Shown one piece after another: positions 34,095 through 38,511 of a DNA stretch of 52,002 nt. The translations under genes were made by a program, and so were the position numbers. The notes under the pieces were generated by a model. That model was not told the origin of the DNA, ran no database searches, and worked only from the letters and a program-made list of their open reading frames with translations. Position 1 is the first letter of the stretch. Each line of letters opens with the position of its first letter. Source of the stretch: Sandaracinaceae bacterium (GTDB lineage: Bacteria > Myxococcota_A > Polyangia > Polyangiales > Sandaracinaceae); the NCBI GenBank assembly GCA_019637095.1, contig JAHBWG010000069.1, positions 1 to 52,002 of the forward strand, read 5' to 3'.

Positions 34095-35003
34095 TCACGC
34101 GCTCGGCGCGCGGCTGCTCGCCCAGAGCGCGGCGAGCGGCGGCGCCATCACGGCGATCGTCATCACGTTCACCGTCAGGACGTTGAACCAGGCCCCGTGG
34201 AACGCGCAGACCGAGCTGTCGATCACGAACCACGTCGCGAGCGAGATCGCGATCGCGGCGAGGCCCCAGCGCTCGCCGCGCCGCACGGGGAACGCCGCGA
34301 GATACGCGATCAGCACGAACTGCCCGGTGATCGTCCCGCCGAGCGGGGCGAAGAGGAACGCCTCGAGCGGCCGGACGGGGGGCGGGAGCGAGTCGAGCCC
34401 GAAGAAGTGCGTCGCGGCCATCGACTCCCAGAGCGCGAGGACGAAGGTCCCCGGCGCGACCGTGAGGACCGCGCCGAGCAACGCGAACGCGACGCTCGCG
34501 CCCATCAGCCAGTGGTGGAACGCCGCGCGGTGAGCGGGGGTCGGCGGCGGGCGACCCGAGCCCTCGACCGGGCGCCGCGCGAAGAAGAGCGGCGCGCCGA
34601 AGAGCGCGAGCGGGACGAGGTTGATCATCAGCACGTTGAAGTAGGCGCCGTGCACGATCGACATCCCGCTGTCGATCACGAACCAGGACGCGAGCCCCGC
34701 GACCGACGCGTGCCACGCCCAGCGCTCTCTCTGAGCGAGCCCGCCCCACACGACGGCGCCCGCGGCGACCCACTTGCCCGCGATGGAGCCGCCGATCGGC
34801 CCGAACAGGAACGCGGTGAACGGGACCACGTCCGCGGGCAGCGACGGCGCGCCGAAGAAGCGCTGCGCCATCGCCGCCGTGTAGGGCTCGAAGAGCGCGC
34901 TCGTGCCCGCCACCGCGACCACGAGCCCGAGCAGCGCGAACCACGCGCACGCGACGAGGAGGTAGCGGACCGACCCCCGCGCCGGTGCGGCCGGGACCGT
35001 CAC
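34095..35003 (-). CDS. Membrane protein made of two duplicated halves
   Basis: A protein of 302 residues from a GTG overlapping the esterase stop. The two halves repeat the same ~145-residue unit. The first carries 'PFTAFLFGPIGGSIAGKWV', 'ASWFVIDSGMSIVHGAYFN' and 'VLMINLV'. The second carries 'PLEAFLFAPLGGTITGQFV', 'ATWFVIDSSVCAFHGAWFN' and 'VLTVNVM'. Each half has about four membrane segments, so the protein arose by internal duplication and may form a pseudo-dimer. The shared WFVIDS and HGA(Y/W)FN motifs are the likely functional sites. I do not recognise the family. Confidence 0.85.
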   Translation of the reverse strand: MTVPAAPARGSVRYLLVACAWFALLGLVVAVAGTSALFEPYTAAMAQRFFGAPSLPADVVPFTAFLFGPIGGSIAGKWVAAGAVVWGGLAQRERWAWHASVAGLASWFVIDSGMSIVHGAYFNVLMINLVPLALFGAPLFFARRPVEGSGRPPPTPAHRAAFHHWLMGASVAFALLGAVLTVAPGTFVLALWESMAATHFFGLDSLPPPVRPLEAFLFAPLGGTITGQFVLIAYLAAFPVRRGERWGLAAIAISLATWFVIDSSVCAFHGAWFNVLTVNVMTIAVMAPPLAALWASSRAPSA

Positions 35004-36121
35004 GGCGCGCGGCCCGCCTCGAGCAGGAAGTCCCAGCTCGGCTCGTTGCGGTGGAGATCTCCGGCCGCGCAGCGCGCGCCCCAGCCCGCGAGGATCGGCA
35101 CGAGGTGCGCGGCGAGCCCGCCGCAACGGTCCGCGTCGACGTGGACGCGCCGGCACGACGCGGGGTAACCGCCCGCGCTCGCGTGCGCGCAGCGCTCGGC
35201 CGGCACGCCGGCGAGGTCCCAGTTGTCGACCACCTGCGGCACGCGCTGGAACGAGTCGTCGTCGTGGATGTACGCGAGGCGCAGCGCCGTGCGCGGCGGG
35301 CTCGCGGCGAGCGCCGCGATCCACGGCGCGGCCGCGTGCGTCGGCGTGCCGTCGCCCAGCCGATCGCTCGGGCCCGCGAGCATCACCACGCGCTCGGCCG
35401 CCTCGTCGCGCGCGAGGTAGAGCGCGTGCCCCGCGCCCTGTGAGTGCCCCGCGAGCGCGACGGCGGAGAAGTCCCCCGCGGCGAGCGCGTCGCGCAGCGT
35501 CGAGAACGGGGCGCCGGGCTCGCTCGCGAGGTGCGCGAGCAGCGTCGCGACGCGGTTCCGGATCGAGCTCGCGGCCGTCACGTCGAGCGGGACCGGCGCG
35601 CCGGGCGCGCCATCGACGATCGCGGCGCGGAAGCGCTCGTAGCAGGGCCCGTCGTCGCCGCACACGCTGCGCACCAGGTGGCGGTTCTCGTACATCGGCG
35701 CGATCGCCGCGAAGCCGCGCTCACACGCGCGGACCGGCACCGCGTGCTCGCTCGCGGGGTCGCCGTACGTCCCGACCAGGTACACGAGGAGCCGCCCGTT
35801 CCACGCCCCGTCCGAAGACGTGCAAAAGAAGTGGCGCCCTGGCGCGCCCGGCACGAGGCCCGCGGGCACCGGCGGGATGTCCGCGCCGAGCGCGCTCGGA
35901 TCGAGCACGCCCGAGCACACCGTCGCGTGGAGCGAGTCGGGGCAGCCCGTCGGCGTCCCCGCGTCGAGGCCGCTCGCGTCCTCGGAGATCGCCGCGTCTG
36001 CGCTCGCCGCGTCTGCGCTCGCCGCGTCTGCGCTCGCCGCGTCTGCGCGCGCACCCGCGTCCGCGGCGTGCGAGCCGTCGCACGCGACGAGGAACAGCGC
36101 CAAGGCGAGCCGCACCCCCAC
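35000..36121 (-). CDS. Lipoprotein with an alpha/beta-hydrolase (esterase-like) domain
   Basis: A protein of about 373 residues. The GTG at 36121 gives a short lipoprotein signal ('LALALFLVAC'); an ATG at 36157 is an alternative start. A low-complexity Ala/Asp linker is built from four 15-bp repeats. The mature domain has 'RLLVYLVGTYGDP', the nucleophile elbow 'VALAGHSQGAGHALYLA' (Ser in GHSQG), 'VVMLAGPSDRLGDG' and late His residues ('AAHLVPILAG'), so it is an alpha/beta-hydrolase with several extra cysteines. It should be exposed on the outer membrane or in the periplasm. The substrate is unknown. It overlaps the duplicated membrane-protein gene (GTGA) and follows the selenoprotein gene by 69 bases. 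Confidence 0.85.
   Translation of the reverse strand: MGVRLALALFLVACDGSHAADAGARADAASADAASADAASADAAISEDASGLDAGTPTGCPDSLHATVCSGVLDPSALGADIPPVPAGLVPGAPGRHFFCTSSDGAWNGRLLVYLVGTYGDPASEHAVPVRACERGFAAIAPMYENRHLVRSVCGDDGPCYERFRAAIVDGAPGAPVPLDVTAASSIRNRVATLLAHLASEPGAPFSTLRDALAAGDFSAVALAGHSQGAGHALYLARDEAAERVVMLAGPSDRLGDGTPTHAAAPWIAALAASPPRTALRLAYIHDDDSFQRVPQVVDNWDLAGVPAERCAHASAGGYPASCRRVHVDADRCGGLAAHLVPILAGWGARCAAGDLHRNEPSWDFLLEAGRAP
35991..36050 (-). repeat. Four tandem 15-bp repeats in a lipoprotein linker
   Basis: Four copies of a GCCGCGTCTGCGCTC unit (the last with one change) at 35991-36005, 36006-36020, 36021-36035 and 36036-36050. They encode the Ala-Asp-Ala-Ala-Ser linker after the lipid anchor. 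The unit keeps frame, so linker length can change. Confidence 0.9.
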
Positions 36122-36190
36122 CCCCCGAAGGTACCTCGACTCGCGTCGCCCGCGCACACGTCGCGGACCGCGCCTCCGCGGAGCACGCCC

Positions 36191-36946
36191 TCAGGGCGCG
36201 GCGAGGACGGCGCGCACGCGCTCGAGGAGCTCGGCGCCCGTGAGGTTCTCGTTGCCGCTGGGCGTGCCGTGCGTGGACACGTCGCGGATCACCATGTCGC
36301 GGCGGGTCACGATCAGGTCGAAGCCGCGCCCGATCGCGAACGGCGCGTCGTCCCACGTCGACATCGACGGAATCATCTGGTTCATCGTCTGCGAGTCACC
36401 GACGCAGAGGCCGGCGCGGCTCCCGCGGCTCGCGACGAACGTGCGGCAGTTCTCCGCCGTGCCGGGCTCGAACGTGCCGGTCTGCTCGAGCACCCAGATG
36501 ATCTGGGCGCCCGCTGCGAGGAACTGGTCTTCGATCATCGCCACCGAACTGGTGTGCGTGCGGCAGTCCGGTCACCAGGCGGGGATCGAGATGAACAGCA
36601 AGACGTCGAACGGGCTCCAGTCGATGTTCTCGTCCGCGGTGCAGTGCGCCTCGACGAGATCGAGCGGGACGTTGCGGCCCGCGCCGTCGATCGCCTGCGG
36701 CCAGCGGTACGGCCAGATCACCGCGCCGAGCGCCATCGGCTCGACCGCGCCCGCGGGGTACGTGCAGCCCGCCACCGCGCCGTCGGGCCGCGCCGCGTCG
36801 GCGCGCGCCGCGTCCACGCCGGGCACCGCGCCGTCCGTACGCGTCGGGCCCGAGTCGAGCCCCATCGGCGCCGCGTCGGCTCCCCCTTCGGGTCCCGAGC
36901 ATGCGCCCAGGAGCGCACAGAGCACGGCGAGGAGTGTTCGAGGCAC
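36191..36946 (-). CDS. Selenocysteine-containing thioredoxin-fold lipoprotein
   Basis: A reading frame of 252 codons interrupted only by an in-frame TGA at 36574-36572. The GTG start at 36946 gives a lipoprotein signal ('LLAVLCALLGACSG') and an Asp/Ala linker. The thioredoxin fold then follows: 'FDVLLFISIPAW', then TGA, then 'PDCRTHTSS'. The TGA falls exactly at the first position of a C-x-x-C redox motif, giving W-U125-P-D-C128. After it the fold continues normally ('AAGAQIIWVLEQTGTF', then a late 'DLIVTRRDMVIRDVS'). A hairpin matching bacterial SECIS rules starts 13 bases after the TGA. Read as a stop, the gene would be two orphan halves, each lacking part of the fold. The lipid anchor places it in the cell envelope as a thiol/selenol oxidoreductase. 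Sec-incorporation genes are outside the window. Confidence 0.85.
36539..36558 (-). promoter_or_regulatory. SECIS-like hairpin downstream of the in-frame TGA
   Basis: On the mRNA strand: CGC, bulged A, CACC, loop AGUUC, GGUG, GCG. This is a 7-bp stem with one bulged base and a 5-nt apical loop whose second base is G. The loop begins 21 bases after the UGA. Bacterial SECIS elements sit within roughly 16-37 bases of the UGA, have a small loop with a G in the first two positions, and often have a bulge in the upper stem, as in E. coli fdhF. All these features are met. Confidence 0.75.
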
Positions 36947-37185
36947 GCGGACCAGAGCATACCCGAACCCGACGCGACGCGCACCGTGTCGCGAGCGGGA
37001 CGGCGCAACAGCGTCGCGAGCGACGCGCTCGTCACCGCGCGCGCTCGAGGCCGCCAGCGACCCGCGCTTCCCCCAACGCCCGAGCCGCGAGACGACCAGG
37101 GCGGGCGGGTCGACGCGCGGTCCGGGAAGACAGGCTGGCTCGCCGCGCTGTTCCGGCGGCCGGACTCCGTGCGAAGGTGCCTCCG

Positions 37186-38511
37186 ATGGGACTCGAGGAC
37201 GCGCGCCGCCGCTCACGCCTCCTCGGGTGGTGCGCCATCGTGCTCGCCGCATGCGGAGCGCCCGTAGCCGACGTCCCCGAGCACGCGCGCCACGGCCCGA
37301 GGTCCCGGTCGCCGCGCGCCACACCCACCGCCACGCCGGCTCCCGCACGCGCCGCGTCGCCGCCGGAACCGATCGAACCGATCGACGAGGCGCGCACGCT
37401 CACGATCGGCTTGGCCTCGGTGCTGGCGGCGCCCGACGAGGAGCTCGACGCCATCCGCGAGCGCGTGGCGTCGGGCGACGTCTCGGCGGCGTCGGCGCGC
37501 TTGGCGGAGCTGCTCGCGGCCGATCTGCCGCGAGCTCGACGTGCGTTCGAGACCGACGAGGCGCTGGCTCTGCTGCGGAGCTCGCCCCACGCCGACGCGA
37601 TCCGTGCGCGCATCGCCGCCGTGGAGACGGCGTGGCGCGCAGCGTTGCCCGAGTCGGTGCCCGCCGTGATGTTCGCCACGCGACCGCACCGCGTGCGAGG
37701 CGGGCTCTACGTCCCCTCGACGCGGCGGTTCCTCCCGGTCGGATCGCCGACGCGAGGAACGGTCGCCGCGCTCGTCGTCCCGCGGGTCGAGCGCGTCCTG
37801 GTGCTCACGCAGCACGGCGTAGGCGACTACGCCGGGCATCCGAACATCTCCGCGGCGATGTACCCGCTCTTCGGTGAGCGCGGTTCGATCGCGTCGGCCG
37901 GGCCCCAGGAGTGCAACCAGTGTGCGTTCGTCGCGTTACCCGATCGCATGCGCGTCCGCTACGGCATCGAGGCGCTCGCGCGGGATTGGAGCGAGGTCGC
38001 CGAGGGCCGCGAGGGCACGCCCGCTCCGTCCGGCGAAGCGGTCGAGGACGCGTATGTGTTCGTACGTCGGGCCGCGTTCCGACGTGATCCCTTCTACGTC
38101 GAGGGCCACACCGACAGGGACGGTGCGCGGCGCGGCGGACCCGTCGCCGGCTGGCGCGTGGTGGGGAACCGCGTCGAGCGTGCGGGAGCGCCGTCGCTCG
38201 TGCTCGGCCGCGGTCACGCGGCGCACGTCGCGCACAACATCGTGCCGAGCCCCGACGCCAGCTCCGTCGTCGTGGTGTCGAACCGCACCTACCCCGCGTG
38301 CTCGCACGTCGTCGATCGGGTCGAGGTCGCGACGGCCGCCACGCGCCGCCTCGCCTCGGGCTCGGGCCTCGCGGCGGCGCTCTTCCACTCGGACGGCGCG
38401 CTGTTTCTGCAGCGAGGGACCGCGACGTACCGGTTCGCACCGGACGACCTCGAGCACGGCGACCCACTCCCCGAGGGAGTGGGCCTGGTCGCGCCGCTCC
38501 AGTGCGACTGA
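37186..38511 (+). CDS. Hypothetical lipoprotein
   Basis: A protein of 441 residues from the ATG at 37186, with a GAAGG ribosome site upstream. A lipoprotein signal ('LLGWCAIVLAACGAP') and a Pro/Ala/Thr linker are followed by a soluble domain of about 370 residues. This has a helical part (about 60-150) and a strand-rich part with 'VLVLTQHGVGDYAGHPNIS', a 'CNQCAF' cysteine pair and 'VVVVSNRTYPACSHVVD', perhaps a propeller. I do not recognise the family. It is divergent from the selenoprotein gene across a 239-base gap. That gap contains two copies of GTCGCGAGCG but no other feature I can support. Confidence 0.8.
   Translation: MGLEDARRRSRLLGWCAIVLAACGAPVADVPEHARHGPRSRSPRATPTATPAPARAASPPEPIEPIDEARTLTIGLASVLAAPDEELDAIRERVASGDVSAASARLAELLAADLPRARRAFETDEALALLRSSPHADAIRARIAAVETAWRAALPESVPAVMFATRPHRVRGGLYVPSTRRFLPVGSPTRGTVAALVVPRVERVLVLTQHGVGDYAGHPNISAAMYPLFGERGSIASAGPQECNQCAFVALPDRMRVRYGIEALARDWSEVAEGREGTPAPSGEAVEDAYVFVRRAAFRRDPFYVEGHTDRDGARRGGPVAGWRVVGNRVERAGAPSLVLGRGHAAHVAHNIVPSPDASSVVVVSNRTYPACSHVVDRVEVATAATRRLASGSGLAAALFHSDGALFLQRGTATYRFAPDDLEHGDPLPEGVGLVAPLQCD

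Follow-up and report, generated by a model that had tools for sequence, protein, structure and literature searches.

The window analysed here, a stretch of 52,002 nucleotides from a Sandaracinaceae bacterium, contains on its reverse strand a reading frame (36946 to 36191) that is interrupted by a single internal TGA, at 36574-36572. When this TGA is translated as selenocysteine (Sec, U), the frame specifies 251 residues, and the translation places U at the first redox position, in the sequence PAW-U-PDC, as the first-pass annotation had proposed. The gene and its parts are as follows.

36191-36946, reverse strand: probable selenoprotein gene, with a GTG start at 36946, a terminal TGA at 36193-36191 and 251 residues including Sec
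36899-36946, reverse strand: predicted signal peptide with the lipobox LGA-C (C16), MPRTLLAVLCALLGAC, assigned from the sequence and from the lipobox of those homologues not truncated at the N-terminus by a contig end
36767-36898, reverse strand: low-complexity Asp/Ala/Gly linker from the putative lipid anchor to the domain, assigned from the sequence; the linkers of homologues vary in length
36194-36766, reverse strand: predicted thioredoxin-fold domain, residues 61-251, from AlphaFold2, PDB matches and alignment A4
36572-36574, reverse strand: in-frame TGA for Sec (U125) in PAW-U-PDC, as judged from TGA in this column of all 21 homologous genes and from the Sec pathway of the genome
36539-36558, reverse strand: SECIS-like hairpin within the coding region, CGCACACCAGTTCGGTGGCG, from a family-level synonymous-recoding test

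The domain carries U125, C128 and H131 together with cysteines 61, 102, 167 and 181, and the homologues end at the matching place, by TGA, TAG or TAA. Standard ORF calling cuts the frame at the UGA into two pieces, 36572-37348 and 36191-36544, just as had been foreseen for automatic annotation; the locus is thus a clear example of a functional gene split by annotation. No sigma-70 promoter or terminator pattern was found near the gene. A lipobox was found by pattern in most members of the family and by inspection in four (the window gene, L039, the first gene of L044, and L051), in which the pattern had chosen a later Cys; the gene at L038 is truncated by the contig end. The earlier claim of a lipid anchor therefore stands as regards the lipobox, in the window and in homologues with an intact N-terminus, and from this motif the protein is probably anchored by lipid in the cell envelope. 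The downstream neighbour (35000-36157, reverse strand) probably also encodes a lipoprotein, whose linker is a tandem repeat of (AspAlaAlaSerAla); it has no Pfam match and is not kept beside the homologues of the selenoprotein gene.

A search of 379 Myxococcota genomes returned 20 strong matches (E <1e-48) in 17 genomes, each with exactly one TGA, and weaker matches (E 1e-6 to 1e-15) that have none. Two further samples added one carrier genome and no Cys version of the gene. The family thus comprises 21 genes, from 18 genomes of Myxococcota, with TGA at the same position in all 21 and Cys in none; 19 of them are covered by alignment A4. Upstream and downstream of the TGA alike, dN/dS was below 1 in all eight pairs tested. 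Both sides are under purifying selection and, as had been claimed, form one coding frame; no homologue was seen in which the halves are separate genes split at the TGA. A search of plasmids gave no match, and the 18 flanking regions hold no conserved gene neighbours, and thus no pointer to a substrate. At one locus (L044, 1492-2943; genome G253, contig C176) the selenoprotein gene occurs twice in tandem, with its own TGA in each copy.

The genome from which the window derives (G000, 9.25 Mb) contains a tRNA-Sec with anticodon UCA, selA, a selB that adjoins the tRNA-Sec, and selD. The selD genes of this genome and of G002 (loci L029 and L028) are themselves selenoprotein genes, with an in-frame TGA at the known GG-U-AAK site. 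In G000 this second in-frame TGA serves as an internal control for the decoding of UGA as Sec. Within the window's family, ten genomes were compared; selA, together with selB and selD above cut-offs, is confined to G000 and G002, and the same two are the only carriers of the gene. More broadly, selA is present in all 17 carriers among the 379 Myxococcota genomes, as against 238 of the 379 overall (P = 3e-4) and two of 16 genomes with only Cys-containing relatives (P = 1.5e-7); both P values ignore shared ancestry. So strict a tie to the Sec pathway within one genome family suggests that this gene may be one reason those species keep selenocysteine. In selA-less genomes, three candidate tRNA-Sec hits above the Rfam gathering score (RF01852; L033, L034, L035) were checked and rejected by ARAGORN, which assigned L033 and L035 to tRNA-Ser and called no tRNA-Sec at L034.

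These observations bear on two other explanations of the TGA. That it is an ordinary stop, leaving two separate genes or the remnant of a lipoprotein gene (truncated, or a pseudogene), agrees with the split ORF calls but is very improbable given the same TGA in so many genes and genomes, a single frame under purifying selection and co-occurrence with the Sec pathway. Equally improbable is readthrough of the UGA, or its reassignment to an amino acid other than Sec, such as Trp. A TGA within the coding sequence would look identical in that case, but TGA also terminates the gene where homologues use TAG or TAA, which speaks against genome-wide reassignment; further, a Sec-type tRNA (UCA) accompanies selA, selB and selD, and the aligned residue in relatives is a redox Cys. 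The pathway and the Cys column both bear out the first-pass reading of a selenocysteine redox lipoprotein, and sel genes are present. From the sequence, then, the gene very probably encodes a Sec-containing redox lipoprotein, a thioredoxin-fold oxidoreductase.

Support for the hairpin comes from the family rather than from the window sequence alone. A SECIS-like hairpin had been claimed at the right distance from the UGA, and it is present at 36558-36539, with an apical loop AGUUC (36550-36546) that begins 21 nt past the TGA; by itself, however, it is what GC-rich sequence would give by chance (z -0.37). At the family level such hairpins are above chance. To count as SECIS-type under the rule we set, which follows what is generally known of these elements in bacteria, a hairpin had to have five or more pairs, a loop lying 16-27 nt from the UGA and a G as one of the loop's first two bases. 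Of 19 genes 12 have such a hairpin, as against 4.0 expected when each gene is recoded with synonymous codons of that same gene; 12 was reached in none of 400 rounds, and the genes so tested are related, not independent. The loop includes codon +8, for which 13 of the 19 genes use AGT or GGT; elsewhere in the genes these make up 4% and 10%, respectively, of the codons for their amino acids. This positional test was used in place of a comparison of folding energies (MFE) with synonymous recoding, for which the mean z was only -0.53. The consensus from RNAalifold across the full set was weak (-0.71 kcal/mol), since the family has two hairpin registers, and the window had no Rfam match at gathering scores.

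The Cys-containing relatives are redoxin-domain proteins of Myxococcota (L010, L018, L020, L053-L065). Their WCxxC aligns with WUxxC (hhalign probability 99.8%, over 157 columns), the domain is homologous, and a C-x-YP start is common to both groups. The relatives differ in having Cys for Sec, a cis-Pro and an additional C-terminal region; they lack C167 and C181, and mostly H131, and 14 of the 16 genomes with only such relatives are without selA. In a tree the Sec and Cys groups stand apart with full support and are separated by one change, for which the unrooted tree gives no direction. The alternation of Cys and U that had been anticipated is thus found in the distant relatives but not within the family, where close homologues always have Sec; it is an alternation between two deeply separated groups. 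We regard the relatives as a separate family, whose genes are at times in tandem (L053).

A thioredoxin fold had been claimed for the protein, and structure prediction agrees. The AlphaFold2 model (pLDDT 94.5, pTM 0.92) has this fold, and among solved structures it comes closest to peroxiredoxins and proteins of the ResA type, with Z about 14 to 15; a sequence search of solved structures gave a best E of 0.28. The claim is thereby refined: the fold as modelled is that of a peroxiredoxin/ResA-like thioredoxin protein from which the usual cis-proline is missing. In alignment A4, U125, C128, H131, C102, C167 and C181 are invariant and C61 is nearly so. At the column of the cis-Pro of the Cys relatives, the family has an invariant Gly, and the residue before it is almost always Arg. 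Arg-Gly is a feature of peroxiredoxins.

The TlpA/ResA thiol:disulfide oxidoreductases are likewise membrane-anchored, extracytoplasmic thioredoxin folds with W-[C/U]-x-x-C, but our family has Sec for Cys, Gly, with Arg before it, in place of the cis-Pro that this class, like thioredoxin, places opposite CxxC, extra conserved Cys residues, and a predicted lipid anchor where they have a transmembrane helix. Typical peroxiredoxins (AhpC/Prx1) share the overall fold (Z about 14) and Arg-Gly before the strand that faces the active site. Identity to them is about 10-16%, and their PxxxTxxC motif is absent; PAWUxxC is found in all members instead, and by motif spacing U would take the position of the Thr, and C128 that of the peroxidatic Cys.

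Another possibility is that the family has already been catalogued. Prokaryotic selenoprotein families and subfamilies are known in large number, many of them UxxC thioredoxin folds, and a 2026 review includes a PF08534 UxxC selenoprotein, the "Redoxin family protein" (PMC13188914); the GOS survey includes "Prx-like 3", assigned to pfam08534 with E above 0.001 (PMC2398784). These Prx-like and Redoxin family selenoproteins (PF00578, PF08534) share with ours a peroxiredoxin-type thioredoxin fold and UxxC, and ours matches both Pfam models weakly. The matches are below gathering, however: 16.6 bits against a cut-off of 26.6 for PF08534 (Redoxin), and 15.2 against 26.0 for PF00578 (AhpC-TSA). The family is also set apart from the two catalogued entries, by their descriptions rather than by alignment, as a lipoprotein with no close Cys orthologue found and with invariant motifs of its own (DWS, PAWUxxCxxH, CVGD, RGFD and HG). 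Three members had no match among NCBIfam models at E up to 1; a search with 19 members gave a single weak one, to a SelL-related redox protein (E 0.075), and no selenoprotein model in NCBIfam fits, including GOS_C (NF045500), SaoT (NF040730) and HUIPC (NF047660). In the literature searched, no paper names selenoproteins together with Myxococcota. We consider prior cataloguing unlikely on these grounds. The family is an unnamed myxobacterial selenoprotein family, split at the UGA by automatic annotation, and the bacterial selenoproteome would gain in it a Sec-only family, in a phylum for which none is named in that literature.

We propose the following course for the protein. In steps that are well supported by sequence, SelD would supply selenophosphate, SelA would form Sec-tRNA-Sec, and SelB would bring this to the UGA with the help of the hairpin about 20 nt downstream, such that a single 251-residue protein with UxxC is made. 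Signal peptidase II may then cut before C16. The lipid would hold the protein on a membrane of the envelope, where the domain, at the end of its flexible linker, would be displayed either in the periplasm or at the outer membrane. In that setting U125 could attack an oxidised substrate and C128 resolve the intermediate, forming a Se-S bond that an envelope thiol donor, by a DsbD/CcdA-type route, would re-reduce. The best reading is thus of an envelope selenol oxidoreductase that cycles a U125-C128 selenenylsulfide, which would bring the chemistry of selenium to the cell envelope, on a protein that is probably lipid-anchored.

The protein may work on other proteins of the envelope, as a thiol:disulfide reductase or isomerase in the manner of TlpA, ResA or Dsb proteins, and not on peroxides. 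UxxC in place of CxxC, the ResA-type proteins among the best structure matches and a DsbD_TM protein in the genome are consistent with this role; the loss of the class cis-Pro to Gly, with Arg before it, argues against it, and we judge the role a real possibility that falls a little short of an even chance. A peroxide-type substrate, by analogy with peroxiredoxins, has about an even chance. The cis-Pro through which disulfide substrates are bound is here the invariant Gly, after a near-invariant Arg, as in peroxiredoxins, and for this reason we lean slightly toward a peroxide or other small oxidant over a protein disulfide. More tentatively, the genes may define a family of selenol peroxidases of the envelope, all of them with Sec, in which the cis-Pro has been exchanged for the peroxiredoxin Arg-Gly, Sec and CxxH form a new active site, and no replacing Cys orthologue is found.
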